This document shows, one piece after another, positions 2,994 through 17,558 of a stretch of 41,188 nucleotides of DNA. The notes under the pieces were generated by a model. The model was not told the origin of the DNA. It was given only the letters and a program-made list of their open reading frames with translations, and ran no database searches. Position 1 is the first letter of the stretch. The number at the start of each line of letters is the position of its first letter. Both the position numbers and the translations under genes were made by a program. Origin of the DNA: Bacteroidota bacterium (GTDB taxonomy: Bacteria > Bacteroidota > Ignavibacteria > Ignavibacteriales > Melioribacteraceae); assembly GCA_021824635.1 (NCBI GenBank), contig JAKAKD010000006.1:1-41188 (forward strand), given 5' to 3'.

Positions 2994-4250
2994 ATGCTTG
3001 GTTCAATAAGACGAATACCATCTGGCTTTTCTTTCATTGATAAAAATTGGGGTGGAATTTATAAAGGTGGAAGTTACATGCTGGTTGGTCCTCGTAAATC
3101 GGGAAGAACGCTTATAGGTCTGCAGTTTGCACTTGAAGCTGCAAAATCTTCTGAAGTATGTCTTTATTTTACTTTGATGCGTCCTAAAGATTTAATGATT
3201 CAAGCCGCTTCTCTGAATTTTGATATCCAATCTTACATGAATCAAAATCTCATTATAGTTGTTCGTGTTGCACCGCCGAATGGAATTTATGACATGTATA
3301 ATCCCGATGATTATTTAGTCGAATATTTGAACGATATAGTTACTGTGGTAGATCAATACCATCCGTCAAGAATAATTTTTGATGAGCTGACTCCCTTTGT
3401 TGGATTTAAGAATTTAGATTATTTACAAGCCGCATTTGTTCGTACATTAGAAACTATTGAAGAGAAAGACATTACAAGTTTGTTTATTATCAGTGAACCG
3501 GCTACAAAAAAAGCTTTTTCAATTGTTGAAGGTCTCTCTCAAAATGTAACCGGAACAATTGAATTGAAAAAAGAGGGAGAAACAAGAGAAGAACGGTTTC
3601 AAGGAGGAAAAGTTACTATTACACCTAATGTAGGGCATACCGAAGGACAGTTTACAGATAATTACAGAATTGAACCATATAAAGGAGTAACAACGGACCT
3701 CACTCCGCTCACAAAAACTATTGAAGAACTTCCTTCAATGCCTAGAGGCCGCAGCTTTAATAAGCCGACAAGAATAGATGTTCCCTCTGAGCCGTACGCG
3801 TTTTCGAATGTTTATAATTATAATGATTTTCTTCTGATACTTAATAATCAAATAGCGCTTTTTAAGAGTACGGGACAAAGTTTTAATCTTATCTCTTTCA
3901 GATTAGATCCGGCAGCACCTCTGAGAGGTTTGTTGACAATACAACAGTTGCAGAATGCTATCCGCCTTTCTACTAGCAAGAAGGACAAAATTTGTATCGT
4001 TGATAATAAAGTTATTGTTCTTTTGGTTAGAGGAAGCTTAAAGAGTTCTTTAGAACTAATGTCGAACATGCAAAACAATTTGCCAAGTCATGATCAAAAC
4101 TATATTAGTGTAGTATTAGACTTTATTTCCATATATAATATTGAAGTGGATGAACGTATAGAAAATGCAGAATCTATGATGGAATTAATTAATAATTCTG
4201 ATGCCGATTCTATGCAGAATTATCAGCCGCTCAATAAATTTATAGGGTAA
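2994..4250 (+). CDS. KaiC-like RecA-superfamily protein with degenerate ATPase site and divergent C-terminal domain
   Basis: 418 residues. Residues 1-225 have the KaiC/RecA-superfamily layout: IPSGFSFIDKNWGGIYKGGSY, a P-loop-like LVGPRKSGRT (residues 30-39) and a Walker B-like RIIFDE. The P-loop lysine is Arg38, and the paired catalytic glutamates usual in KaiC (as in FEE) are replaced by FTLMRPKD, so ATP hydrolysis is doubtful. Residues ~273-380 form a second alpha/beta domain whose hydrophobic pattern (FLLILNN, FNLISFRLD, KVIVLLVR) recalls a GGDEF-type fold without its signature; that assignment is tentative. It is the first gene of the exopolysaccharide-like cluster and its stop overlaps the next start by one base, which suggests co-translation. 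A regulatory or scaffold role is inferred. Confidence 0.7.
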   Translation: MLGSIRRIPSGFSFIDKNWGGIYKGGSYMLVGPRKSGRTLIGLQFALEAAKSSEVCLYFTLMRPKDLMIQAASLNFDIQSYMNQNLIIVVRVAPPNGIYDMYNPDDYLVEYLNDIVTVVDQYHPSRIIFDELTPFVGFKNLDYLQAAFVRTLETIEEKDITSLFIISEPATKKAFSIVEGLSQNVTGTIELKKEGETREERFQGGKVTITPNVGHTEGQFTDNYRIEPYKGVTTDLTPLTKTIEELPSMPRGRSFNKPTRIDVPSEPYAFSNVYNYNDFLLILNNQIALFKSTGQSFNLISFRLDPAAPLRGLLTIQQLQNAIRLSTSKKDKICIVDNKVIVLLVRGSLKSSLELMSNMQNNLPSHDQNYISVVLDFISIYNIEVDERIENAESMMELINNSDADSMQNYQPLNKFIG

Positions 4251-7200
4251 TGAAAACATATTTGAAAATACTTCCGTTCCTCATTTTCATTTCTGTAGTT
4301 ACAATCCATTCTCAAAACAAGTCCGACGTATATAAAAGCCAAGGCGAAAATTTAATGCGTCAAGGTAAATACCAAGATGCAATTGATCAGTTTAATAAAT
4401 TCATTGCCGCCGATCCTAATCACGCAGAAGGATATCATTTACGCGGACTTTGTTATGAACGGAGCCAGCAATATGAATATGCTGTTATTGATTTACGAAG
4501 AGCTAGAAAATTACAGCCTGGTAGTGACGAAATAAGAAATGATTTAGACCGCGTGGTTGCTGTTTGGTATAAACAATTAAATAAGAGTATTGAAGGACAC
4601 AAACGAGATATTCTGGCGGATCCGAATAACGCTATCAGCTATTTAGAAATTGGTAAATCATATAGATGGTTGGAAGATTGGAGAAATGCTGAAGAATGGT
4701 ATGATGAATATTTGAAACGAGACGAAAACATATCGGAAGATGAAATAATCAGGTACACAGAAATTCTTTCTAAAACCGGATCAATTACAAAAGGGGAGAG
4801 AGTTCTAAAAAAATATACCGAGCTGCATCCGGATGATTGGCGTTTATGGAGTAGATACGGTTACTTTTGTTTATGGCTTGGAAAATTTCAGATTGCGGAA
4901 AATGCTTTTAAATCTTCACTTAGAATTAAACCAAATTACCAGGAAGCTAAAGAGGGATTAAACCTTTCCAAACGGCAAGAGTCTTTAACTCAAAATCAAG
5001 AAAAACAAAAAGTTGAAGAAAATACAGAGTCTCAAATTGATAGTGCTTTCCGGCTTCTGAATGACGAACCGGAAAATTACCAGCTTCGTTTTGATCTAAT
5101 AGATAGACTTATTTCAGCTAATCGTTATGAGGAAGCTTATCAACAACTTCAATATCTTTCTCCGGTACATAAAGATGATGAAAAATACAAATCCCAATTT
5201 AAAATTGTTACTGACTACCGCGATAGTACTTTTAACCGGGATGTAAATCATTATACCGAATTGCTGAAAAAAAACCCGTTGGATAAAGAAGCCGTTATGA
5301 AACTGGCTGCTGCATATGGAAATCTTTTCTATTATAACAGTGCAATTGAAATATTAGAAGAGTATCTGCAAGATATTCCAGCTGATCAAGATTTGGATGC
5401 TCGATTCGAATATTCTCAATATTGCGCATGGGATTATGAATGGGAAAAAGCTACTGTACAAATTGATAAACTGTTAGAACTAGCTCCCAGCAATTTAGAT
5501 TATCAGCTTTTGCGAGCTCAGATTTGTATTATGACAGTTGATGATCTTGAACTAGCTGAAAAATATTTACTGAATGTTTTTAGCAGTCGTTCTAATGATG
5601 TTACCGTGTTAACGGCTTTAACAACTCTCTATGTCTGGAAGAATAATTATTCTGAGGCAGAGAAATATTTGAATCTAGCAAAACAAATTGCACCTAATAA
5701 TCCGGAAGTTGAAAGAACAGAAAAGAATTTCATCTCGCGCAAAGCCGAATACGATGAGCAATTATCTTTACAATCTTTGAAAGTTGATGCTAATAATTTA
5801 TTCAATGAAGGGAAATGCGAAGATGCTTTTGAAAAATATAATAAATATGTTTCAAAGCAATCAGTAATTACGCGTGATGAACTGATTGAATATGGGAACA
5901 TCTGCTCATGTGCCCAAAAATATACTCAGGCAATCGAAGCTTACAGCAGAGCTCTGGATCAACAATATGATTATTCTCTTTCTATTAAACGTGCAGTAAA
6001 TTATTACTATGATCAAAATTATACTAAAGCAGGCGAAGAACTGGAATTGTTAAGTAAAGAGAAGTCTGATGATGAAGCGCGCTTGGCTTTAGCTGATGCC
6101 TACACTTCGACATTCCATTTGAACAAAGCTGAAAAAATATACCGAGACCTTAGACTGAAAGCTGAGGACGATAAACAAAAACAACTGATTGGTGAACGGA
6201 TGATTTCATTGGGTGAAAATTATGTCGAGGATAAAAAATTAGAAAATGCGGAAAAAATATTTGATGAAATCAATAGATCTATTACCGATTCGTCTCTAAA
6301 AAGAGATCTAAATCAAAAACTTATTTTTTTAGGCGATGCTTATGTAATGAATGAAAGATACGGTGATGCAAAACGTATCTATTATAATTTGCTAAATGAG
6401 TCTAATGACGCTGCGGAATTAGAAACCGTAAAAGAAAGAATAAATTGGTTGCCGCCTTCTGCTTTAAGCCGCGGGATTTCTGATATTAAAAATTTCTTCT
6501 CAATATTTTTACCAAGCAAGAGTGGCATTTTGCCATTCTCTAATTACTATAGTGATAATCAAAAATTTAGGTTATGGAATTATGGAATAAAAGCAGAAGC
6601 AGATTTTTTCAGCTTTCTATCTCTGGGAGCGTCTGTAACACGTGCGAATCTAAATAATTCTGTTTTAGATAAAGACTTCACGAATCTGAAAGGGATAGCG
6701 GGAATTTCTTTCTCGAAATATATTTCTCTAAAAGGAAGTTATGGCATTTGGGAAATATTCGGAGAGCAGAATAAAAGTATTGCAGATATTACATTTAAAT
6801 ATGAAACAGAAAATGATTTATCCGCAATTCTTTCTGTTGGTAATGATGATCTAAGGATGACGAACTATTCATCTAATCTGATTATGTCTCGGATTAATAT
6901 TGATTACTACAGTTTGAATCTTATTTATAACTATAATGGATTGTTCAAAATTTCCGGTGATTATAAATATTTTAAGCTTAGTGATGGCAATGAAGGTAAT
7001 GATTTCCAAATTAGATTAGGCAGAAAATTTTTCGATGATGGTATTTTTGGATACGAATACTTTTTCTCTGACTATGCATTTATTTCATCGCGCTATTATT
7101 CACCACAGAATTATGATTCACATTGTCTTTGGGGAGAATGGAACTGGACTTTTACGGATTTAAAATTGAAAGTCGCCGGAAAAATTGGCTATGTACCTTT

Positions 7201-7360
7201 AGCGGATTATATTCTTGAAGAAATATCTGGTGAAGCAGTTTATAATTTAATCTCCAATTTGAGCATTGAAGGTAAAATTGGTTATGGTAATAATTCCAGA
7301 TACGGTAATAGTTACAAAAACATATCCGCTTCACTAAACGCTTATTGGAGAGTTTTTTAA
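4250..7360 (+). CDS. TPR protein fused to an outer-membrane beta-barrel (PgaA/BcsC/PelB-like exporter)
   Basis: 1036 residues. An N-terminal signal peptide (hydrophobic residues 5-20, probable cleavage near HSQ) precedes a long alpha-helical region (about 25-740) of tetratricopeptide repeats, clearest at 28-100, 120-250, 340-500 and 515-720. After a linker, residues ~760-1036 alternate hydrophobic and polar residues with many Tyr, Phe, Gly and Asn, and the protein ends in Phe, as outer-membrane barrels do. Synthase-dependent polysaccharide systems use exactly this plan: a periplasmic TPR scaffold plus an outer-membrane pore (PgaA, BcsC, PelB/AlgK-E). The next genes encode a processive glycosyltransferase and a deacetylase-fold protein. 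It most likely guides and exports the polymer. Sequence alone does not separate a BcsC-type from a PgaA-type barrel. Confidence 0.8.
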   Translation: MKTYLKILPFLIFISVVTIHSQNKSDVYKSQGENLMRQGKYQDAIDQFNKFIAADPNHAEGYHLRGLCYERSQQYEYAVIDLRRARKLQPGSDEIRNDLDRVVAVWYKQLNKSIEGHKRDILADPNNAISYLEIGKSYRWLEDWRNAEEWYDEYLKRDENISEDEIIRYTEILSKTGSITKGERVLKKYTELHPDDWRLWSRYGYFCLWLGKFQIAENAFKSSLRIKPNYQEAKEGLNLSKRQESLTQNQEKQKVEENTESQIDSAFRLLNDEPENYQLRFDLIDRLISANRYEEAYQQLQYLSPVHKDDEKYKSQFKIVTDYRDSTFNRDVNHYTELLKKNPLDKEAVMKLAAAYGNLFYYNSAIEILEEYLQDIPADQDLDARFEYSQYCAWDYEWEKATVQIDKLLELAPSNLDYQLLRAQICIMTVDDLELAEKYLLNVFSSRSNDVTVLTALTTLYVWKNNYSEAEKYLNLAKQIAPNNPEVERTEKNFISRKAEYDEQLSLQSLKVDANNLFNEGKCEDAFEKYNKYVSKQSVITRDELIEYGNICSCAQKYTQAIEAYSRALDQQYDYSLSIKRAVNYYYDQNYTKAGEELELLSKEKSDDEARLALADAYTSTFHLNKAEKIYRDLRLKAEDDKQKQLIGERMISLGENYVEDKKLENAEKIFDEINRSITDSSLKRDLNQKLIFLGDAYVMNERYGDAKRIYYNLLNESNDAAELETVKERINWLPPSALSRGISDIKNFFSIFLPSKSGILPFSNYYSDNQKFRLWNYGIKAEADFFSFLSLGASVTRANLNNSVLDKDFTNLKGIAGISFSKYISLKGSYGIWEIFGEQNKSIADITFKYETENDLSAILSVGNDDLRMTNYSSNLIMSRINIDYYSLNLIYNYNGLFKISGDYKYFKLSDGNEGNDFQIRLGRKFFDDGIFGYEYFFSDYAFISSRYYSPQNYDSHCLWGEWNWTFTDLKLKVAGKIGYVPLADYILEEISGEAVYNLISNLSIEGKIGYGNNSRYGNSYKNISASLNAYWRVF

Positions 7361-7662
7361 AAACTCATGAATGTTGATTCTTCCTTTTTGTTTGTATAAA
7401 GTGGATACTATTACTAAAAATGATTTATAAGATTATTCTATGCTCTTTCTTTAAGAGTTACTTTTAACTTATTCTCTTGCAACAAGTTAATAAAAAAACT
7501 ATATTCGTTTTAAATTTGTTTCCTAATGAGTCAAAATTACTATTAATTTAATCTTGGAACATCTACAAGCTGGAATAGTGTTGAAATTTAGATTAAATCG
7601 CTTGATTTAATGGCACCATCTTTGTTTAATTAAATTGATTAATATCTGATGCAAGAATAATA
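7361..7662 (+). other. 302-base gap inside the exopolysaccharide cluster
   Basis: No credible open frame is seen on either strand. The region is very AT-rich and carries a perfect inverted repeat at 7592-7611, listed separately, plus AT palindromes such as TTTAATTAAA near 7626. It probably holds an internal promoter and leader for the glycosyltransferase operon, but no confident -35/-10 pair could be assigned. Confidence 0.5.
7592..7611. promoter_or_regulatory. Perfect inverted repeat, candidate operator
   Basis: ATTAAATC (7592-7599), spacer GCTT, then GATTTAAT (7604-7611) is an 8-bp perfect palindrome with a 4-base centre, 51 bases before the GTG start of the glycosyltransferase. No T-run follows, so it is less like a terminator and more like a dimeric regulator site. 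The high AT content makes chance occurrence possible. Confidence 0.35.
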
Positions 7663-9102
7663 GTGGACTCAAAAAATCAAAAATATCAGATTGCTCTCGA
7701 TAACAGAGAAGTCAAGCCGCCAAAAAGAAATCTTGGGACTGAAAAACTAAGAGTTATTTTCATTTCAGGATTTTTTTCTCTCTTATTAATTATCACTATA
7801 GTACTTACAGTTCCGTTAACGGTTCTAACATGGAGCGGATTATTTGTTTATTCATCCATCGTTTCGTTGGTTATCTTTTTGTTTATCTTATTAATCAGAT
7901 ACTTCGGCATTCTTTTCATGGCCTATTTTTACAACACAAGATATACGGTTCAAACTAAAGAGGGGTATTATCCTTTCATATCGATTATAGTCCCGGTGTT
8001 TAATGAAGGAGTTGTCTTAAGATATTCAATTGAATCGTTACTCGATATTGACTATCCGAATTATGAAATTATCATTGTAAACGATGGTTCAACCGATGAT
8101 ACTGCTGTTGTTGGTGAATCGTTAGTAGGTAATCAGAAAGGCAGAAACGGAATTATTAAAGTGTCGATGATTAACAAACCGAATGGCGGTAAAGCCAAAG
8201 CATTGAATGCCGGAATACAATATTCTGAAGCTCAATTTGTTTTGTGTATGGATGGAGATTCTCAATTAACTCCAAATTCTTTAAGAATGGCTGTAAGACA
8301 TTTTATTGATCCGGCTGTTGGAGCAGTAGCTGGTAATGTTAAAGTACAAAATAGGAAAAAAATTCTGACCGATCTTCAAGCCCTTGAATATTTAGAAGGT
8401 TTGAACATGGCACGCAGCGCACAAGGATTTATTCAAATGGTAAATATTATTCCTGGTCCCATCGGTTTATTTAGAAAGACAGCATTGAGGGATGCGGGTT
8501 TCTATTCGAGTGACACATTTGCAGAGGACGCTGATGTAACTCTTAAAATCTTAGCCCATGGTTGGAGAATTGTATATGAGCCAAATGCTATTGCTTATAC
8601 TGAAGCTCCGAGCACAATATATCAGCTATTAAAACAAAGATATAGATGGACAAGAGGAATTCTTCAAGCAATTAGAAAACATAAACGATATCTTTTCAAC
8701 CCTACTGTAAATTTTAATAATAGTCTGATTATGTGGTCAATGTTTTATGAAGCATTAATTTGGCCAGCAATGAATATCTTTGTAAATCTTTATTTCATTA
8801 TTATTGCTATCTTTTATGGGTTATCAAGTTTTATCTTTTTATGGTGGATAGGAATTGCAGTCTTAGACCTAATGGCAGCCGTATATTGTGTGGCGGCAGA
8901 AAAAGAAGAATTCAGGTTAGTACCGTACGCAATTATTTATAGAATTGTTTTTATTCTTTTAATTGATGTTACAAAAGCTATGGCTACAGTTGAAGAATTT
9001 CTTGGTGTAAGGATGACCTGGGGAAAATTAGAAAGGACTGGTTTGGGCAATTCTCCAGGGTCATCTTCCAAAACGGTCCCGGTTACGGTCGCTTCAAAAT
9101 AA
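7663..9102 (+). CDS. Processive family 2 glycosyltransferase (PgaC/BcsA-like polysaccharide synthase)
   Basis: 479 residues with a GTG start; the upstream frame is closed by TGA at 7636 and no better start exists. It is an inner-membrane GT2 synthase polymerising a nucleotide-sugar donor into a beta-linked polysaccharide while moving it across the membrane. Two membrane segments lie at ~30-52 and 57-85. The GT-A domain follows, with DGSTDD (Asp141 onward), DxD at Asp197-Asp199, the base motif AED (Asp289) and QRYRW (Q325xxRW329), all the residues of an active processive enzyme. Further membrane helices cover ~360-440. There is no PilZ domain, so this is PgaC-like rather than BcsA-like. The product sugar (GlcNAc, glucose or other) cannot be told from sequence. 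Confidence 0.88.
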   Translation: MDSKNQKYQIALDNREVKPPKRNLGTEKLRVIFISGFFSLLLIITIVLTVPLTVLTWSGLFVYSSIVSLVIFLFILLIRYFGILFMAYFYNTRYTVQTKEGYYPFISIIVPVFNEGVVLRYSIESLLDIDYPNYEIIIVNDGSTDDTAVVGESLVGNQKGRNGIIKVSMINKPNGGKAKALNAGIQYSEAQFVLCMDGDSQLTPNSLRMAVRHFIDPAVGAVAGNVKVQNRKKILTDLQALEYLEGLNMARSAQGFIQMVNIIPGPIGLFRKTALRDAGFYSSDTFAEDADVTLKILAHGWRIVYEPNAIAYTEAPSTIYQLLKQRYRWTRGILQAIRKHKRYLFNPTVNFNNSLIMWSMFYEALIWPAMNIFVNLYFIIIAIFYGLSSFIFLWWIGIAVLDLMAAVYCVAAEKEEFRLVPYAIIYRIVFILLIDVTKAMATVEEFLGVRMTWGKLERTGLGNSPGSSSKTVPVTVASK

Positions 9103-9127
9103 CAAAAAGATTTTAATAGAGGTTTTT

Positions 9128-9616
9128 ATGGAATTAATTCCAATACTTTCTCTCATAATTTTGGTTGCAACAATTTCCACATTCATACTATCTGTGGGAG
9201 CTTACATTCTTTACAAAGTAAGAGAACGTAAAGGTGTTGCAACTCAAGCCCCACAACCGGCTGCATTACCAGCTGAGCTGTTAGCTCCAGCTCCTCTTAT
9301 GTCGGAGCAGAGACTTACACCGGAGCGTAGAACATTTGATATACCGCAGCAAGAGTTTGGTTTTGAATATCAACGCCAACCTTCAAATATACCATACGAA
9401 GATTCGTCACGCGGTCCAGAATTAAGACCGACCTTTGTTGGAACATCACCACCTACATATGGTGAGAGGTATCAAAGACCAACAGGAGAATCATCTCATT
9501 TTAATGAAACGGAACGACCGGGTCAAAAGAAAAAATTTATGCGTTATACAAATGAAGGTTATGTCGATCCATCGAGTCAAGATCGCAAACAAGAGGATAA
9601 TTTGAGGTGGCGGTAA
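9128..9616 (+). CDS. Small membrane protein with disordered Pro/Gln-rich tail
   Basis: 162 residues, not recognised as a known family. One transmembrane helix (about 4-29) is followed by a basic stop-transfer segment KVRERKG, which predicts an outside N terminus and a cytoplasmic tail. The tail (about 35-162) is low-complexity, rich in Pro, Gln, Glu and Arg, and looks disordered. A Shine-Dalgarno AGAGG precedes the ATG. It sits between the glycosyltransferase (25-base gap) and the deacetylase-fold protein, whose GTG start lies inside this gene's last codons. The position and small membrane nature match PgaD or other synthase accessory subunits, but no sequence relationship is visible; the comparison rests on context only. 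Confidence 0.7.
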   Translation: MELIPILSLIILVATISTFILSVGAYILYKVRERKGVATQAPQPAALPAELLAPAPLMSEQRLTPERRTFDIPQQEFGFEYQRQPSNIPYEDSSRGPELRPTFVGTSPPTYGERYQRPTGESSHFNETERPGQKKKFMRYTNEGYVDPSSQDRKQEDNLRWR

Positions 9617-11505
9617 AAGAAGCCAAAGGGCTTAGGGTAAATTATCTTATAATTTTTCTCAGCGGGTTAGTCCTTCTAATCTCCGCCATTCTAGTTTTTC
9701 TTCTCATAGTGAAAAATATTTATGGTAATTATGAGCTGAGAGAAATTCTACCTACAAAAGAAAATTTAAAATTCCTATCAAGCGAGAAAAGAGCTAAAGT
9801 TGGAATTTTATATTCCAAATATACCGAGAATATGCTAAACCCCGGAAGCACATGGTTAAAGGACAACGTTGATACTTGGAAACAGAAGATTAAAGATGCA
9901 AAGCTTGATTATGATGTAATTTCAGACCAGACTATAGAACTCGGTGAACATTTCGATTATAAATTAATTGTGTTGCCTGGTTCTAAATCATTGAGCGATA
10001 AAGAAATAATGCAGTTGAAACGTTATGTTGAAAATGGCGGAAGTATTTTTGTTACCGGCGGACCTGCTACTTATTCTGATGAGGGGAAATGGAGAGGGTG
10101 GGATTTCTTTAAAGAAGTTTTTGGAATGAATTTTAATCGCGAAATTAAACCGGAAGAATATTATAAAGTTCATACATTACGCGGTGACCTACCTATTACC
10201 GCTCAGATTCCTACCGGATACGCATTAAAGGTTGCAACTTGGGACCGTCCGATCTATGCCGAAGTAGTAGAACCAAGAACAACACAAGTAAGTTTTTGGT
10301 ACGACTTTAGGCGGGAAGCAGGATTAGTTAGAGAAGAAATTCAAAAGAGTGCCGGCATTTCTTACGGAACTTATGGTAAAGGTAGATTTGTTTGGTACGG
10401 ATTCGAGATTAATTCAGTGATCGGTGTTCAAAAAGATTATATTTTTTTTGAGAGACTTTTTAATAATTCAGTTAATTGGTTGATTTATCAACCCACGGCA
10501 TTTGTAAAAGATTGGCCTGCTCAATATGATGCTGCATTAGTTTTAGTCCCAACTATAAAAGATCAGCCGGGAAATATTTACAATCTCACTACGATTCTTA
10601 ACAAATCTAAAACACCGGTGACATATTTTATAGATCCAACTGTAGCAATTAAAAATCCGGGTTTTGTAAAATCATTAACTAAAAACGGTGAGTTAGGTGC
10701 TATAATTGATCTAGGATATATTGAATCTCCGCAGGATACAGTAAACAAATTATTTAGTAAAGAAGTCCAGTTCTCAACATTCAAGTTTGTGACAGATACA
10801 TTAAGTAAGATCAGTGGTAAGTCTGTAAAAGCCATCATGCCTTTAAATGGTTATTATGATGATAACACATTGCAAGCTATGGCGTCTCAGAATTATGAAT
10901 TCTTAGTTACTGACTCACTTACCGACCGTTCAGTACCGGAGATTAGAGTTCGAAATAATAAACCGATAATGATCATTACAAAGACAGCCCGTGATGATTA
11001 TGAGGTTGTGCGTAATTATGGTCTGGTGAATACTAATTTTCAGCGTTATACTTATGAAGAGGATGTTGACCGTATTTTATTTGAAGGAGGGCTTTATGTT
11101 TTTAAGGTTCATACTGATTACCAATTGCAGCCACAATATTCTTCTGTAATTAGCGACATATTAAAGTATGCTGTTAATAAAAAAATGTGGATTACATCTC
11201 TAAAAGAATTGCAAGCTTGGTGGATGAAACGGCAGGGTGTTGAAGTTAGATATGAAACAAGAAGTAAGCGCCGAATTGCGGTTGAGTTCACAAATCCAAG
11301 AAATGAAAAAATTGATGAATTGGTAATTCAAGTTAACCTTAACAAAAAAGTTACAAATGTTGAAGTATCTTCAGACATTATTAATACTAAAATTCCTAAA
11401 TACAAATTGTCTAGCGAAGGGCAAACTATCTATTTCTATCTTGAAAAGATGGAAGCACATGAATCACGTTCGTTACTTGTTGATTTTGATAATGTTGAAA
11501 ATTGA
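9607..11505 (+). CDS. Membrane-anchored protein with GATase-like and degenerate NodB-like domains
   Basis: 632 residues. GTG start overlaps the previous gene by ten bases, with AGAGGA at 9592-9597 well placed. A single N-terminal membrane anchor (~12-36) leads into an alpha/beta domain (~55-290) resembling class I GATase/ThuA-like folds: AKVGILYSKY, FDYKLIVLPGSKSLSD and GGSIFVTGG. Residues ~305-540 resemble a NodB polysaccharide deacetylase barrel (YDAALVLVPTIKD, TPVTYFIDP, NGELGAIIDLG), yet the TFDD motif is LVPTIKD and the HxxxH pair is absent, so metal-dependent deacetylation is unlikely. A beta-sandwich-like tail (~545-632) ends the protein. By position it corresponds to PgaB, but it may bind or guide the polymer rather than modify it (inference). 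Confidence 0.65.
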   Translation: MAVKEAKGLRVNYLIIFLSGLVLLISAILVFLLIVKNIYGNYELREILPTKENLKFLSSEKRAKVGILYSKYTENMLNPGSTWLKDNVDTWKQKIKDAKLDYDVISDQTIELGEHFDYKLIVLPGSKSLSDKEIMQLKRYVENGGSIFVTGGPATYSDEGKWRGWDFFKEVFGMNFNREIKPEEYYKVHTLRGDLPITAQIPTGYALKVATWDRPIYAEVVEPRTTQVSFWYDFRREAGLVREEIQKSAGISYGTYGKGRFVWYGFEINSVIGVQKDYIFFERLFNNSVNWLIYQPTAFVKDWPAQYDAALVLVPTIKDQPGNIYNLTTILNKSKTPVTYFIDPTVAIKNPGFVKSLTKNGELGAIIDLGYIESPQDTVNKLFSKEVQFSTFKFVTDTLSKISGKSVKAIMPLNGYYDDNTLQAMASQNYEFLVTDSLTDRSVPEIRVRNNKPIMIITKTARDDYEVVRNYGLVNTNFQRYTYEEDVDRILFEGGLYVFKVHTDYQLQPQYSSVISDILKYAVNKKMWITSLKELQAWWMKRQGVEVRYETRSKRRIAVEFTNPRNEKIDELVIQVNLNKKVTNVEVSSDIINTKIPKYKLSSEGQTIYFYLEKMEAHESRSLLVDFDNVEN

Positions 11506-11570
11506 GTCTAATATCTCTATCAAAACTGATTCTCATTCATTAAATTATGGATCATAAAAAAAATAAATAG

Positions 11571-12818
11571 ATGAACCACTCCAAAAAAAAAATATTTAGT
11601 TATTCTATTCTGATAATATTTCTAGTCGGTTTTTTGTTCGGCTGTGTTGAATCAGTTACGGATACTCAGACGTCTACTACACCTACAATTGACTTGTTTA
11701 GTCCCAAGACAGGTGATACTGTAAAGGTGGGGCAAAATGTAGTTAATTATCAAGCTGCAGACGGCGCAAGCGGACAAGGATTATCTTATTACGAACTCTA
11801 CGTAAATAAAACATTCGTTAAAAAATATACTCAGCCAACAGATGGCAATCCTATAATCTATTTAGAAGTTGACTCTGCTCTAATTCATACAAAAATTAAT
11901 TATAGCATTAAAGTGTATAACAAAGGCGGCAAATGGAAAGAAAGTAAATTACAAGAAGATATTTATGTTAAGGACAAGATACCTCAAGCCCCGACCAATT
12001 TAGTGCTTTCTCGTTATGGCAATAATTCGGTTATTCTAAAATGGGACCCATATTTACCCAAAAATGCCGATGGTTTTGAATTGTGGAGAAGAGATGTCAT
12101 CAATGGAGTTGAAATTCCATTTAGGAAAATTAAAAACCTTCCTGTTAGCTACTTAAGCTATACAGACGGAAATTTGTCGCAGTATCAAGAATATTCCTAT
12201 TATTTAAAAGCTTATAATGAATCTGGTTCTTCTGCAAGCAATATCGTCAGCACAAGTTCGTTGCCGGACGGTCCTTGGAATCTGCAAGCCGAAGCAATTG
12301 GGGCTAGTTCAGTTCATCTTAAGTGGGTTGACTTTGCCTTAAATGAAACCGCTTTCCAGATTGAAAGAACTAATCCAACAACAAATGAGTTTAAAATTCT
12401 TAAAATAACTGAAGGTCCTAACATTACTGAATATTATGATAATTCGGTTTCTGCTAGTACAGCTTACAGCTACCGTGTTGCGTATTTTACTCAATCAACT
12501 ATGAGCTCTTATTCTAACATAGTTACTTTAACAACTTTCCATGCCGATGTTTCTGCACCATCAGAGTTGACTTCGACATTTGTTGCAGAAGGATTACAAC
12601 TTTCTTGGAAAGATAATAGTCAAAGTCTCTCTAAAGGAACAATAATTGAACGTCAGACAGGAACAAATGATTTTGTTGAGATTGGAAATGTAAGTTCTGA
12701 TAAAACTTCTTTTATTGATCGTTCTCCAGTTAGCGGAGTTACATATTATAGAGTTAGACAAATATTAGGCACAAAAACCTATACCCCATATTCAAATATT
12801 CTAAGAGTGATATTTTAG
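11571..12818 (+). CDS. Fibronectin type III repeat lipoprotein
   Basis: 415 residues. A signal segment with lipobox LFGC (Cys25) predicts a lipoprotein. An Ig-like domain (~38-138, PTIDLFSPKTGDTVKVGQ) precedes three fibronectin type III domains (~140-230, 232-325, 328-415), each with the usual start such as APTNLVLSRYGNNSVILKW and an NIV-type ending strand. No catalytic domain is present. FN3 and Ig modules on bacterial surface proteins commonly mediate carbohydrate or protein contacts. Lying between the deacetylase-fold protein (65-base gap) and the sensor kinase (5-base gap), it may tether the exported polymer at the cell surface or join the export complex. This role is inferred from context. 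Confidence 0.8.
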   Translation: MNHSKKKIFSYSILIIFLVGFLFGCVESVTDTQTSTTPTIDLFSPKTGDTVKVGQNVVNYQAADGASGQGLSYYELYVNKTFVKKYTQPTDGNPIIYLEVDSALIHTKINYSIKVYNKGGKWKESKLQEDIYVKDKIPQAPTNLVLSRYGNNSVILKWDPYLPKNADGFELWRRDVINGVEIPFRKIKNLPVSYLSYTDGNLSQYQEYSYYLKAYNESGSSASNIVSTSSLPDGPWNLQAEAIGASSVHLKWVDFALNETAFQIERTNPTTNEFKILKITEGPNITEYYDNSVSASTAYSYRVAYFTQSTMSSYSNIVTLTTFHADVSAPSELTSTFVAEGLQLSWKDNSQSLSKGTIIERQTGTNDFVEIGNVSSDKTSFIDRSPVSGVTYYRVRQILGTKTYTPYSNILRVIF

Positions 12819-12823
12819 AAAAT

Positions 12824-15800
12824 ATGACGAACAATGTTAAGACAAATACTTTACAACAAAATCTGAGCGGGACACCTTCTGTAATAATTGATAAAGGTGG
12901 AAAGATTATTGCCCTTAGTCCGGAATTCAGAAAACTTGTTCCATCATCGAATGCTCAATCGAACTTTTTTGAGCTATTTGATGAAGATAAATTACTTACT
13001 CTCCAAAGAATATTTATTGATGTAAGAAAATATGAAACGATCTCCAAGGATATAATTCAATTTGAATCCGAATTAGGTCCCTCTAATTATGAAGTTGTTA
13101 TTTCTCCAATGAGAAGTGAGAATAATATCTACTTCCTAATAAATTTCACTGATTCAACTCAAAGCAGGAAAAGTTCGGAAACTCATAAACTGTGGGTTGC
13201 CTCAACCGAACTGGAAAAAATTGTTGACAATAAAAGAATTATCTCTGTTATTAATAAAATAAAGTTAACATTTCCTTTTACTTTTATTGAGAGAGCAAAA
13301 GTTCAAAAAGAAATTAATGAACTAGACGAATATTTTTGGATTAAAGACACAGTAAGCAATTACCTTCTTGTTAACGATAAGTATGCAGATTCTCTCGGCT
13401 TCAAAACAAACCAACTAGAAAACAAGAGGGAAGAGGATTTTCTTCCAAAATATTTAACTAATCTTTATAGAACAGTTGATTCATATATTATTGATTCAAC
13501 CAATTCGGTTATTATAGACAGCAATTCTTCACCCATAACTGCTGGAACCGTTCGTAATCTTTCTATTGTACAATTTCCTCTTTGCGATTTAGACAACAAA
13601 GTAGTGGCAATAATAGGTTTTTCACAAAAATATGAACGAATGCCTGCCGAACAGAGCCAAGCTAATATTAATTACTATATGAGAGAAGTTCCTTCTGCTG
13701 TAATTTTCTTTGACAAGGAATTTAAAATCTCCGCATATACAAATGAATTTTTACGTCTCATGAGTATTAGCGAAAAAGTAGACATAATGGGAGAAGAGAT
13801 AACTAAAATATTTGAGAAAGGTTTTATACCATTTGTTGAAGAATATTTAAAAGAAGATAAATTAACTTCCGAACGGATTTACAATTACGTATTCCTAGAA
13901 AAGAAACAACTGAACGCTGAAATCCGTTTGAAAAAAATATTTGATGATAATAATGAATACTTTGGAACTAGAATTTCTTTAACACAGAATGTTGAGCGCG
14001 ATTCAGAAATTGAAGCTAAAGCGAAAATGTATGATGCGATTATTCAATATTCGCATCAGGCTATGTTCATATACGATATAGAAAATCTAAAATTTCTGGA
14101 AGTTAATGATGAAGCATTGAAATTATATGGATATAAGAGAGGCGAATTTTTGAACATGGATTTGACTGATCTTTATGCGCCTGAAGATATACAAACTATA
14201 ATTCAGTCTGGCGAAAGTAAGTCAATACCAGGGAGTTACAGCGGTCCTTGGCGCCATAAAAAGAATGATGGATCTTCTGTACTGGTAGAAATTAATAGAT
14301 CAGCTATAGATTTCAATGATAAAAAATGTCATTTAAATATTGTTCGTAATGTTTCTGAACAAGCTGAACTTAAAAAGAGAAGCCAGATACTAGAGGCAAC
14401 TTATGAATACACAAGCGACCCTATAATTATTACTGATAAAGATGGCTTCATTACAGAAATAAATGATCCGGTAACCAAACGATTGGGCTATTCTAAAAAA
14501 GATTTACAGACACGCCCTTTCATAACTTTAGTCTCTGATGATGACCGTGCAAAGATTAATAAAAATATTTTTCATTCTGGACTTCTCAAAACAGTAAATC
14601 TCGAAGTTGGATTTAAAAAACCTTCTGGAACTTTTCAAAAAGCCATGGTTATTGCTGTTCCTATCAAAGATTACAGCGGGGATATTGATTCATTCAGTTT
14701 GATAATAAAACTTATTGATGAGCCGGTTGTTTCTAAAGATGTCAAGCATTTGCAAGATGATTCCTCACAGAAAATTGATCCTCCGTTTCTATCGAATGTC
14801 TTTCATGAAATACTCACACCAATAAATGTAATTCTTGGTTTTACTCAAGAATTAGGTGATAGCATTCCAAATCCAAACGGTGAGCAGAAAGAGGCAATAG
14901 ATATAATAAAAGAGAATCAAAAACTTCTACTTCAGGTAATGGACAATGCTGTTGAGTTTTCTACATTAGAGCAGAAGTTAATTAAGTTTAGACCGGAAGA
15001 GATAAAGTTCATAGATATTATAAACGAACTGAAAGAAAATACACGTAAAACAGCGGAAGACAAAAAAGTTGAAATAGCTTACGGGAAAATATCTTCTTCG
15101 TTACAGTTAGAGACTGACAGATCGAAATTCTTATCACTCTTAAGCTTGTTTGTAAAATTCGCAATTCAAATTACAAAAGAGAATTCTGTTTATCTCTCTT
15201 CCGGAATTTATGACACTAACTATTGTGCTGTTCGAATAAAAGATACACGTAATGCAATAACGCCATACTTATTAAAAGCGCTAACGGAAATATTTTCTGA
15301 AGATGAAAATATGAGCAGAAGGAATTACGGTTTTTCTCGGTTCTCTGTTAAACTAGCGAAAAAATTAATTGATTTACTTTCTGTTCGTAAAGAAGTTATT
15401 ATGAAGGAAGGTGAACCGCAAGAATATGCTCTCGTCTTTCCTTTAAAATTTATTATTGGCGATAAAGAAAAGATGGAAGTCGAAAATGTTGTAGCGGCTA
15501 AAAAAATAGAGTCGAAACCGCAAAGTCAGCCAGTTGTGGTAAAACCACTTTCTGAAAAAAATGTTGTTGAAAAAATAATTGAAACAGAAAAAAAACAGTT
15601 CGACCTTTCTCAAATCTCTTGTTTATATCTGGAAGATCAAGTTGATTCACAAATGCTATTTAAAGTTCAGTTGAAAGATCTGAAAAGCATCGAATTTGCT
15701 CCAAGTTTTGAGAGCGCATTACCGTTGCTAAAAACTAAAAAGTTTGATTTTATTGTGATGGATATTAATCTACAGGGGGAGTATAATGGACTTGACGCTT

Positions 15801-15973
15801 TAAGAATCATTCGTAAAATGCCCGGCTATAAAGATATACCAATAATAGCATCAACAGCATATGTGCAACCAGGAGCTCGCGATAATTTTATCTCAGCCGG
15901 TTTTACTGAATTTGTCTCTAAACCATTATTACGAGACAAACTTTTGGAAGTCATTAGAATTCTATTTTCATAA
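12824..15973 (+). CDS. Multi-PAS hybrid histidine kinase with degenerate ATPase domain and C-terminal receiver
   Basis: 1049 residues, no obvious membrane helix, so probably cytoplasmic. About five PAS-like domains occupy residues ~15-110, 165-275, 285-395, 405-520 and 525-640. A HisKA-like helix pair follows with H-box FHEILTPIN (His661). The ATPase-like region (~750-880) is degraded: the N-box reads FLSLLSLFVKFAIQIT without its Asn, the G1 box DxGxG reads DTRNAI (from Asp807), and the G2 box reads YGFSRFSVKLA. A low-complexity linker leads to a receiver domain (~930-1049) that looks intact: acidic LED, phospho-acceptor Asp980 in MDINL, STAY and SKP. It probably cannot autophosphorylate and may accept phosphate from another kinase. 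Placement suggests control of the polysaccharide cluster. Confidence 0.8.
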   Translation: MTNNVKTNTLQQNLSGTPSVIIDKGGKIIALSPEFRKLVPSSNAQSNFFELFDEDKLLTLQRIFIDVRKYETISKDIIQFESELGPSNYEVVISPMRSENNIYFLINFTDSTQSRKSSETHKLWVASTELEKIVDNKRIISVINKIKLTFPFTFIERAKVQKEINELDEYFWIKDTVSNYLLVNDKYADSLGFKTNQLENKREEDFLPKYLTNLYRTVDSYIIDSTNSVIIDSNSSPITAGTVRNLSIVQFPLCDLDNKVVAIIGFSQKYERMPAEQSQANINYYMREVPSAVIFFDKEFKISAYTNEFLRLMSISEKVDIMGEEITKIFEKGFIPFVEEYLKEDKLTSERIYNYVFLEKKQLNAEIRLKKIFDDNNEYFGTRISLTQNVERDSEIEAKAKMYDAIIQYSHQAMFIYDIENLKFLEVNDEALKLYGYKRGEFLNMDLTDLYAPEDIQTIIQSGESKSIPGSYSGPWRHKKNDGSSVLVEINRSAIDFNDKKCHLNIVRNVSEQAELKKRSQILEATYEYTSDPIIITDKDGFITEINDPVTKRLGYSKKDLQTRPFITLVSDDDRAKINKNIFHSGLLKTVNLEVGFKKPSGTFQKAMVIAVPIKDYSGDIDSFSLIIKLIDEPVVSKDVKHLQDDSSQKIDPPFLSNVFHEILTPINVILGFTQELGDSIPNPNGEQKEAIDIIKENQKLLLQVMDNAVEFSTLEQKLIKFRPEEIKFIDIINELKENTRKTAEDKKVEIAYGKISSSLQLETDRSKFLSLLSLFVKFAIQITKENSVYLSSGIYDTNYCAVRIKDTRNAITPYLLKALTEIFSEDENMSRRNYGFSRFSVKLAKKLIDLLSVRKEVIMKEGEPQEYALVFPLKFIIGDKEKMEVENVVAAKKIESKPQSQPVVVKPLSEKNVVEKIIETEKKQFDLSQISCLYLEDQVDSQMLFKVQLKDLKSIEFAPSFESALPLLKTKKFDFIVMDINLQGEYNGLDALRIIRKMPGYKDIPIIASTAYVQPGARDNFISAGFTEFVSKPLLRDKLLEVIRILFS

Positions 15974-16038: not shown

Positions 16039-17337
16039 TCAATCCACATCATTTACAAACATCACCAACAAAGCGGCTATAAACATTGAAACACCTCCGG
16101 CAAGTAATGCGTAGATAGCTTCATTCCCCATGAAATGTCGTACTAAGAAACCAAGAATTGCGGCAGCAGTTATTTGTGGAATGACAATAAAGAAGTTGAA
16201 AATTCCCATATACACGCCCATCTTATCTGATGGGATTGAGCCAGCAAGAATAGCATATGGCATAGAAAGAATTGAAGCCCAAGCCAAACCAATCCCAAGT
16301 TCGGAAATAAGAAGTAAGTTTGGATCTTTAATGAAGTAAAAAGAGATAAGACCAAGACCGCCAAAGATCAAACTAATCATGTGTACTGTTTTCCGTGAAG
16401 TCTTTTTAGCAATCCATGGAATTAAAAAAGCAGTAAGAGCTGCAAAGCCGTTATATACTGCGAATAAAATTCCAACCCAGTTTGCACCTTCATTATATGA
16501 AGTGCTTGTGGGATCACTTGCGCCATAGATATGGTGTGTAACCGCTGGGGTGGAATAAATCCACATCGCAAAAAGGGCAAACCAAGAGAAGAATTGGACA
16601 AATGCGAGCTGAACCATAGTCTTTGGCATCTCAAGAAAAGATCTAAAAATTTCTATAACTCCTTTTACTAACCCCTTATTTTCTATCTTATTACGTTCAA
16701 ACAGTTCAATGTCTTCCGGTGGGTATTCTTTGGTCCTAAACACAGTCCAACCAACTGCTGATATGAAAGCAAATGCGCCGACATAAAATGAGTATCTTAC
16801 TGAAGGAGGAATTTCCCCTTGAGGAGCTGTATTACTTATTCCAAGCCAATTAGTAAAAATATATGGCAGTGCTGATGCAACAATTGCTCCGGTGCCGATG
16901 AAAAAACTTTGCACGGCAAATCCAGTAGTACGTTGATCCGATGGAAGAATGTCTGCTACAAGTGCCCTGAAAGGTTCCATTGAAATATTAATTGAGGCAT
17001 CCATCATCCAGAGCATTCCTGCAGCAACCCATAAGGCAGGAGAGTTTGGCATAATAATCAAACCTAACGATGCAAGTATTGCACCAACTAAAAAATATGG
17101 ACGGCGTCTTCCGAGTTTTCCCCAAGTTCTATCGCTTAAATAACCTATAATCGGTTGAACAATCAAACCAGTTGCAGGTGCTGCAATCCACAGTATGGGA
17201 ATTTCATCTATACTGGCACCTAAGGTTTCAAATATTCGGCTTACATTCGCATTTTGAAGTGCAAATCCGAATTGTATTCCCAGGAATCCAAAACTCATAT
17301 TCCAAACTTGCCAAAAGCTTAATCGTTTTTTCAACAT
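16039..17337 (-). CDS. MFS sugar transporter, SLC45/sucrose-transporter-like
   Basis: About 432 residues with around twelve hydrophobic segments. The cytoplasmic loop GYLSDRTWGKLGRRRPY after helix 2-3 and MEPFRALVADILPSDQRT in helix 4-5 are typical of the GPH/SLC45 branch of the major facilitator superfamily, which symports maltose, sucrose or other glycosides with H+ or Na+. A TTG twelve bases upstream (17349) is an alternative start; ATG at 17337 is preferred, though no clear Shine-Dalgarno precedes either. The gene is convergent with the sensor kinase (65-base gap) and divergent from the isoprenoid operon. It is a single-gene unit; the substrate is not determinable here. Confidence 0.85.
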   Translation of the reverse strand: MLKKRLSFWQVWNMSFGFLGIQFGFALQNANVSRIFETLGASIDEIPILWIAAPATGLIVQPIIGYLSDRTWGKLGRRRPYFLVGAILASLGLIIMPNSPALWVAAGMLWMMDASINISMEPFRALVADILPSDQRTTGFAVQSFFIGTGAIVASALPYIFTNWLGISNTAPQGEIPPSVRYSFYVGAFAFISAVGWTVFRTKEYPPEDIELFERNKIENKGLVKGVIEIFRSFLEMPKTMVQLAFVQFFSWFALFAMWIYSTPAVTHHIYGASDPTSTSYNEGANWVGILFAVYNGFAALTAFLIPWIAKKTSRKTVHMISLIFGGLGLISFYFIKDPNLLLISELGIGLAWASILSMPYAILAGSIPSDKMGVYMGIFNFFIVIPQITAAAILGFLVRHFMGNEAIYALLAGGVSMFIAALLVMFVNDVD

Positions 17338-17558
17338 AACTTTGTCCAATTGATTAATAATTTGAGGAACAATTTAACCGAATGTTGATTAAAAATCTTA
17401 AGAAAATTTACGAGTTATAGAAAATAGCCAAGGTAAATTCTTGATAAACATCTGATCGTAACTAAGTTTCTAATATTGATGATCACTTTGGATTGTCAAA
17501 TCAGAGAATCTCAGCTAAAAAATTTTTATTTTGTTTCTGAAATTAATTTTTAAATATA
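17338..17558. promoter_or_regulatory. Divergent intergenic region with presumed promoters for the transporter and fni
   Basis: About 220 AT-rich bases lie between the minus-strand transporter and the plus-strand isopentenyl diphosphate isomerase gene, so promoters for both must lie here. TTGATA at 17441-17446 could be a -35 element but no good -10 lies at the right distance. The ATG at 17559 has no Shine-Dalgarno, only AT-rich bases, as is common in Bacteroidota-like genomes. No operator is evident. Confidence 0.4.

Follow-up and report, generated by a model that had tools for sequence, protein, structure and literature searches.

The best-studied synthase-dependent polysaccharide systems are controlled by cyclic di-GMP (c-di-GMP). 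BcsE and PelD are among the c-di-GMP-linked examples (PMC7439463); Escherichia coli BcsE is described there as carrying a predicted RecA/KaiC-like domain with a degenerate Walker A motif, together with degenerate REC and GGDEF domains, and BcsF as a short membrane protein that docks BcsE. PelA (PMC12022489) contains, in order, an alpha/beta domain, a deacetylase domain, and a beta-rich domain, the top DALI hits of the alpha/beta domain including ThuA-like proteins and IFT52. The cluster described here lies on contig JAKAKD010000006.1 (assembly GCA_021824635.1) of a Bacteroidota bacterium of the family Melioribacteraceae, order Ignavibacteriales; the whole stretch analyzed, positions 1 to 41,188 of the forward strand, is referred to below as the window.

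This cluster is considered, with moderate confidence, to encode a synthase-dependent, probably beta-glucan-like, secretion system under the control of a pseudoenzyme scaffold. It shares with the Bcs system a glycosyltransferase family 2 (GT2) synthase, a tetratricopeptide repeat (TPR) protein as candidate exporter, an endoglucanase, and a short membrane protein, and with BcsE an adaptor that joins RecA/KaiC-like and GGDEF-like domains and has a poor Walker A motif. Synthase-dependent secretion is a known kind of system; the combination of parts is new. In line with the original prediction, which was made from the letters of the window, no named operon that matches it was found in the open-access literature searched, as judged by titles and the beginnings of abstracts.

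The seven co-directional genes of that prediction were all recovered as open reading frames (ORFs) on the plus strand, overlapping their neighbors by at most 10 bases or separated by gaps of at most 302 bases, the widest of which lies between the second and third genes. They encode a KaiC-like protein (2994-4250), a TPR/barrel protein (4250-7360), the GT2 synthase (7663-9102), a small membrane protein (9128-9616), a GATase-NodB protein (9607-11505), an FN3 lipoprotein (11571-12818), and a histidine-kinase-like protein (12824-15973), and the predicted domain assignments were upheld by Pfam and NCBIfam scans. The glycoside hydrolase family 9 (GH9) gene at 1175-2839, also on the plus strand and missing from the predicted membership, is the eighth member, and the unit starts upstream of the KaiC-like gene.

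Gene order and distribution

Homologs were sought in the phylum, in one close-relative scan over all species, and in plasmids. Gene order was scored in 50 loci from 49 genomes (L041 and L044 lie on the same contig of G041), 40 of them hand-picked for diversity among 146 relatives and the other 10 taken from an 11-locus close-relative scan from which L031 was left out. The gene-order profiles were built from the same 50 loci that they score, and each denominator counts the loci in which the second gene of the pair and something upstream of it are visible. The order is conserved far beyond chance: the KaiC-like gene precedes the TPR/barrel gene in 41/41 loci, the GT2 gene directly precedes that of the small membrane protein in 49/50, the small membrane protein is followed by GATase-NodB in 50/50, GATase-NodB (or a tandem paralog) by the FN3 lipoprotein in 44/44, and the latter by the kinase-like gene in 43/49. 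The step from the TPR/barrel gene to the GT2 gene is direct in 26 of 47 loci and includes one intervening gene in another 18, and the GH9 gene stands immediately upstream of the KaiC-like gene in 38 of the 41 loci with a visible upstream gene. The neighborhood search for which the original prediction had called thus found a conserved gene order in relatives, and the lack of conservation that it had feared did not occur.

Across the 146 relatives, the KaiC-like protein was found in 125 (E<=1e-30), the GATase-NodB protein in 124 (E<=1e-3), and the small membrane protein in 120. In a wider draw of 395 genomes from the phylum, 50 had GATase-NodB at E<=1e-15. The KaiC-like and GATase-NodB proteins occur together in 116 relatives, both are missing from 15, and GATase-NodB alone and the KaiC-like protein alone were found in 6 and 9, respectively (weak GATase-NodB matches in G050 and G120 are counted here as absent, and genomes off the lists are placed by elimination).

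Of 13 loci from distant families, 10 showed the order KaiC-TPR-GT2 (7/8 in family f40 and 3/3 in f28), which was labeled in neither the single f41 nor the single f50 locus; the three loci without a clear order include one at a contig end (L099) and two in which long reverse-frame ORFs mask genes (L097 and L103). GATase-NodB follows in nine of the ten ordered loci, with the second copy alone labeled in L102, and the KaiC-like ORF of L101 is a contig-end fragment. None of the 13 distant loci showed a GH9, FN3, or kinase-like gene, except for two 16-bit FN3 matches on the opposite strand. The claim of a co-conserved synthase-dependent polysaccharide cluster is borne out by the order kept in the 50 loci and the core kept in distant families, and the retention of degenerate modules over such wide distances agrees with a set that is selected rather than decaying.

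A tandem, diverged second GATase-NodB gene was seen in L062, L063, L065, L066, L067, L070, L075, L077, and L107 and in several f40 loci. The GATase-NodB match contains one in-frame TAA in G089 (locus L068), G096, G119, and G129, three of which belong to one genus; the starting point of the match may account for this, or the gene may be broken. The plasmid search, made with the GATase-NodB protein of the distant ortholog L095, returned no relative, and a GT2 match in Prevotella was set aside as a fused protein in a different context.

Synthase, hydrolase, and nature of the polymer

The processive GT2 protein (Glyco_trans_2_3, 2.4e-30) retains the motifs D141, DGD197-199, ED288-289, and QRxRW325-329, all invariant in 49/49 rows; this and the other alignments include the duplicated locus L041/L044 and the window itself. 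Pfam detected no PilZ domain in it, whereas BcsA has a C-terminal PilZ domain. A beta-1,4-glucan-like chain is the most likely polymer, and this assignment is the weakest step of the interpretation.

An amino-sugar polymer of the poly-N-acetylglucosamine or chitin type appears rather unlikely; the locus would then be a pga-type variant that has given up deacetylation and whose NodB-like protein does no more than bind the chain. The best NCBIfam profile is PgaC_IcaA (TIGR03937; 207.6 bits), followed by NodC (107.3 bits); of three E. coli proteins compared by hhalign, PgaC came closest (1.9e-36, versus 1.3e-12 for BcsA); and the periplasmic protein has a NodB-like fold. The PgaC_IcaA score, however, falls below the cut-off of 422.3 bits, the motif QRxRWxR is common to the cluster GT2 and BcsA (QRIRWAR) whereas PgaC differs (QRLRWAQ), and the hydrolase of the cluster belongs to GH9. 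The nearest solved structures of this GH9 protein are endoglucanases (best 105.9 bits), whereas 3h7l and 5dgq, which we take to be Vibrio/Photobacterium-type relatives acting on glucosamine chains, scored 38.5 and 31.8 bits. The echo of PgaABCD in the original prediction stands for the synthase, which is nearest to PgaC by profile, and fails for PgaB and PgaD, to which no relation was detected. Nor is the exporter close to PgaA.

The GH9 gene encodes a Glyco_hydro_9 domain (Pfam, 2.4e-75) and a CelD_N Ig-like domain, and its product is probably exported, to judge by a signal recognized in its sequence. Residues D176, D179, and E534, presumably the catalytic Asp, Asp, and Glu of the family, are present in 27/27 rows. 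Its profile did not match BcsZ (E=0.2), which is a GH8 endoglucanase. In a census of 27 genomes, the cluster GH9 was the only GH9 found in G000, G007, G041, and G053, that is, in 4 of the 13 cluster-bearing genomes of the order.

These data also bear on the idea that the locus serves cellulose degradation, with the GH9 and KaiC-like proteins acting in polysaccharide uptake and the GT2 being incidental. GH9 proteins are counted as cellulases in Melioribacter roseus, where cell-bound bands of 55-65 kD that degrade carboxymethyl cellulose were attributed, on the basis of their size, to GH9 proteins, Mros0757 (62.4 kD) among them (PMC3534657). The M. roseus record in our set (L039) encodes a GH9 protein of 62.75 kD, which would be the 62.4 kD protein of that zymogram. 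A degradation locus is nevertheless very improbable, given that the GT2 gene precedes that of the small protein in 49/50 loci and keeps its motifs intact in every row; and since a sole GH9 stands beside the synthase in 4 of 13 genomes, GH9 alone is not evidence of cellulose degradation here.

The TPR/barrel protein, a candidate exporter, carries TPR repeats recognized by Pfam and a putative C-terminal outer-membrane barrel, suggested by its position and a C-terminal Phe. Its TPR part matches BcsC (E=3.7e-8, a generic TPR relation) and, over 53 columns, PgaA (E 0.0044); the barrel part gave E=0.007 versus BcsC and E=0.016 versus PgaA. The FN3 lipoprotein has FN3/Ig-like domains (fn3, 3.2e-6) and an LFGC lipobox identified from sequence.

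The small membrane protein consists of a single conserved helix and a variable tail, with the highly conserved helix sequence MELIPILS.IILVATISTF and the C-terminal motif KFMRYT.EGY...WR. Both the helix and the tail motif are kept in f40 (FWEYTDEGFVPV versus KFMRYTNEGYVDP in the window lineage), and a longer protein with a transmembrane segment plus tail occupies the same position in f28. The small protein was found in 47 of the 395 phylum genomes (E<=1e-5), all of them among the 50 with GATase-NodB, and the 3 remaining genomes are those of f28.

GATase-NodB protein

The structure model of this protein (mean predicted local distance difference test score [pLDDT], 85.6; predicted template modeling score [pTM], 0.86) shows a helix, a ThuA/GIFT-like alpha/beta domain, a NodB-like domain, and a beta-sandwich. 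A fold search with the model retrieved NodB-type deacetylases, GH42 enzymes, and ThuA-like proteins, with PelA (9cgy) at rank 23 (TM-score of 0.28 by query and 0.23 by target; root mean square deviation, 16.9). Pfam matches were to GH42M, ThuA, and IFT52-GIFT (weak, the last two below cut-off), with a weak match to NodB. No His occurs at 368-371, the presumed site of the metal-binding pair, in any of the 51 rows, D368 and G370 being present in 49 and 50 of them, respectively; an acid is retained at position 319 in 36/51 rows and His502 in 50/51. The protein is best read as a chain-binding pseudo-deacetylase, as judged from these residues, although the kept ones may serve another chemistry.

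The fusion of a GATase-like to a NodB-like domain had been thought to lack a counterpart in the classical operons, a claim that does not hold, since the order of alpha/beta, deacetylase-fold, and beta-rich domains is shared with PelA as described in PMC12022489. Unlike PelA, the cluster protein has no N-terminal hydrolase domain (only a helix precedes the alpha/beta domain), has lost the His pair, and is anchored by a helix. The Pel system, moreover, employs a GT4 synthase and PelG, whereas the cluster synthase is a GT2. As for BcsB, the GATase-NodB profile, the sole candidate, gave E=0.33 versus the E. coli protein, and none of the eight cluster proteins matched the BcsB family in Pfam or NCBIfam. 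Membership of the locus in the pga, bcs, or pel type was rejected on these grounds: there is no PilZ domain and no match to BcsB or BcsZ, the synthase scores below the PgaC cut-off, and the hydrolase domain and deacetylase His pair of PelA are missing.

KaiC-like protein with a GGDEF-like domain

The N-terminal half (residues ~1-235) of the KaiC-like protein is of the KaiC type, both by Pfam (KaiC, E=8e-20) and by its best solved relatives, which are KaiC proteins. It has one such RecA-like domain, whereas KaiC has two, and this domain is fused to a degenerate GGDEF-fold domain (~274-405). The Walker A motif is altered (GPRKSGRT), and its Lys position (38) is Arg in 32 of 43 rows and Lys in 11, so the loss is common and not universal.

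The structure model (mean pLDDT, 78.9; pTM, 0.56) places the second domain at 274-405, where the modeled succession of helices and strands is that of a GGDEF domain. The best 50 fold matches listed for this model are all KaiC-type, so the second domain was not probed by them. Pfam GGDEF_2 matched the distant ortholog L095 (E=7.4e-4; 20.2 bits, below the curated 24.5) and did not match L100 or L104, making one positive of three scanned. A profile of 52 C-terminal domains aligned by hhalign with the E. coli cyclase DgcT scored 30.1 over 129 columns; none of 12 other E. coli proteins exceeded 17.9, and the highest score among 100 shuffles was 21.5. The C terminus compared singly with 18 GGDEF-like proteins of the lineage stayed at shuffle level (best 19.7), and the same 18 combined with DgcT into one profile gave E=0.0058 over 97 columns; with the 43 sequences of the order alone as the query, nothing was found (E=0.42).

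The resulting plan is that of BcsE minus its middle (REC) domain, a likeness that rests on architecture: the KaiC-like protein has 418 amino acids versus 523 in BcsE, and its model shows no third domain. Given the RecA/KaiC-like and degenerate GGDEF domains described for BcsE (PMC7439463), the view that the KaiC-like head gene has no counterpart in a classical operon had to be dropped.

Kinase-like protein

The kinase-like protein has the architecture of a multi-PAS hybrid histidine kinase, with PAS, HisKA, and receiver domains matched. His661 and the receiver Asp980 are kept in 46/46 rows, which, together with the intact synthase motifs, confirms the expectation that synthase and receiver retain their key residues. 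The presumed N-box, placed by reading the alignments (as were the metal-binding His pair and the I-site), has Asn at 779 in 0/46 rows and at 775 in 2/46. Asp807 of the G1 box is present in 46/46 rows, Gly is found at 809 in 0/46 and at 811 in 12/46, and the G2 box is altered; HATPase_c stays below the Pfam cut-off in 9/9 full kinase proteins (best 20.4 versus 26.4 bits). With HATPase motifs this degenerate, the protein has probably lost conventional autophosphorylation.

The statement in the original prediction that three modules have lost key residues can now be qualified. It holds for the His pair of the NodB-like domain, with the acid at 319 and His502 mostly kept, and in part for the KaiC-like domain. 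The GATase-like domain is of the ThuA/GIFT/GH42-trimerization type, and a domain of that type need not have been an enzyme. The GGDEF-like domain of the KaiC-like protein and the HATPase domain of the kinase, both degenerate, had been missed.

Search for c-di-GMP components

No EAL domain was found in 29 relatives and no PilZ domain in 20 genomes. PF00990 gave one match per genome, above the cut-off, in 27 of 29 relatives, and the canonical GGDEF motif occurs in none of the 18 PF00990 proteins read; in distant families, a single genome of the 12 searched had GGDEF. On these counts c-di-GMP control of the cluster is disfavored and appears unlikely, HD-GYP domains not having been searched for. 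The PF00990 protein is, whatever its role, a second conserved degenerate GGDEF protein in the relatives. In G000, its copy has ISEKVF at about the place of the GGDEF motif; the locus L112 (G000 C77:35000-42000) holds a GAF-like protein that lacks this motif and is the sole GGDEF-family match found in G000.

Genomes without the synthase

Loci were read in six of the nine genomes with the KaiC-like protein only and in G140, which lacks the GT2 gene. In G120 and G144, the KaiC-like, small membrane, and kinase-like proteins are kept and the GT2 and exporter between them are gone; G140 keeps these three and GATase-NodB without the GT2. What G014 and G046 keep is a much diverged KaiC-like protein (151 and 186 bits, respectively) together with a much diverged kinase (371 and 319 bits). 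A divergent KaiC-TPR-GT-kinase set is present in G012, and the G009 locus is a contig end carrying GH9, KaiC-like, and TPR genes. A search for a GT2 of cluster strength elsewhere found none in G012, G014, G046, G120, G140, and G144 (best E values of 8.0e-35 to 1.5e-21), five positive controls having given 9.1e-242 or better. Part of the regulatory set can therefore outlive the synthase and exporter.

Such remnants are what would be expected if the KaiC-like, small membrane, and kinase-like proteins formed a general signaling module of which the synthase cluster is one output: the KaiC-like protein and kinase persist without GT2 and exporter in five genomes (G120, G144, G140, G014, and G046), in which the best GT2 match elsewhere (E 2.8e-25) falls short of cluster strength. 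This explanation is unlikely, however, as the KaiC-like and GATase-NodB proteins go together in most relatives (116/146), all five genomes are just 80-94% complete (the G140 locus being on a single contig), and the much diverged proteins of G014 and G046 may be a separate family. The small-protein helix is, moreover, altered in two of the three genomes that keep it without the cluster GT2. Its identity to the consensus is 35% in G120, where the tail motif is kept, 68% in G144 (23/34, counted by hand), where the tail motif is changed, and 85% in G140, where GATase-NodB is present, compared with a lowest value of 71% in 51 cluster rows; as to a pairing of this helix with the synthase, the picture from three genomes is mixed.

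Proposed mechanism

In the secretion system favored here, the GT2 would polymerize a nucleotide sugar and pass the chain across the inner membrane. Once in the periplasm, the chain would be held or guided, but not deacetylated, by the GATase/NodB/beta-sandwich protein with its single-helix anchor; the GH9 protein would trim or proofread the chain, like BcsZ, the TPR/barrel protein would export it, and the FN3 lipoprotein would be an accessory. The cytosolic KaiC-GGDEF protein may act as a noncatalytic adaptor that the small protein probably tethers to the membrane, in the way that BcsF does for BcsE. Signals would enter through PAS sensing and a phosphorelay via His661 and Asp980; as the kinase-like protein probably no longer uses ATP, a different kinase would have to supply the phosphate. 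Gene order, residues, predicted folds, and distribution are observed, and the polymer, the docking, and the flow of signal are what we infer.

Several observations weigh against this reading. In sequence, the GT2 is nearer to PgaC and YaiP than to BcsA, so the beta-glucan interpretation rests mainly on GH9, and GH9 lies outside the core of the distant families and occurs in 5 of 10 cluster-less genomes (one a weak match). The small membrane protein has no sequence relation to BcsF detectable by profile. For the adaptor, the KaiC-like protein of the window has no Pfam GGDEF match, E. coli BcsE went undetected by the KaiC-like profile (E about 0.7), and the I-site RxxD is absent from the window lineage; with REC also missing, membership in the BcsE family by sequence was rejected. 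RxxD is present in 7/9 distant orthologs, in families with GGDEF in 1 of 12 genomes. The matches of whole-kinase models such as LuxQ and TorS still extend over the degenerate ATP domain, with scores well under the respective cut-offs. Finally, some genomes hold the KaiC-like protein and kinase without a synthase, so the module may have another or wider role.

Flanking and intervening genes

Upstream of the GH9 gene, at 454-1125 on the plus strand, lies a fatty-acid hydroxylase gene (PF04116). Its relatives were seen near the GH9 or KaiC-like gene in 18/50 loci, some of them truncated by the locus boundary; a large number of the remaining loci begin inside GH9. The hydroxylase may be a ninth conserved neighbor. 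Between the TPR/barrel and GT2 genes, 18/50 loci (one counted twice) carry a gene for a protein of 403-465 amino acids, as at L035:6533-7813 and L056:5654-6940. It was of the GDSL/SGNH type in both copies scanned, one of them under the Pfam cut-off, and possibly encodes an acyl-modifying enzyme; the window lacks this gene and has a 302-base gap at 7361-7662 instead.

The ORFs for the small membrane and GATase-NodB proteins, called by the first start codon, overlap by 10 bases in 50/50 loci, because the first possible GATase-NodB start takes its NTG from a Trp codon that is invariant in the small protein (9605-9616 in the window). No Rfam match was found at the locus, and promoter- and terminator-like sites were no commoner than in shuffled sequences.

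Downstream, a major facilitator superfamily (MFS) gene lies on the opposite strand (16039-17349). The part of the ORFs scanned in 16039-41188 looks housekeeping: besides the MFS transporter, they encode an FMN dehydrogenase, a polyprenyl synthase, a PEP-utilizing enzyme, DNA polymerase I, a MutS2-like protein, biotin carboxylase, a FadL-type porin, and a HUP protein of the tRNA methyltransferase type.

Implications

In this cluster, the KaiC, GGDEF, HATPase, and NodB domains are degenerate, while the synthase, hydrolase, phospho-accepting His, and receiver Asp are strictly kept. Tentatively, the GGDEF-KaiC adaptor, like BcsE or PelD in plan, the degenerate kinase, and the conserved helix could form a c-di-GMP-independent switch built of pseudoenzymes; as it can outlive the synthase, such a switch may control other outputs. 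Unlike the best-studied systems, the cluster is conserved across the order without an EAL domain, a PilZ domain, or a canonical GGDEF motif having been found. It makes the nonenzymatic role of such domains directly testable and may reveal a way of switching secretion that dispenses with the usual messenger.

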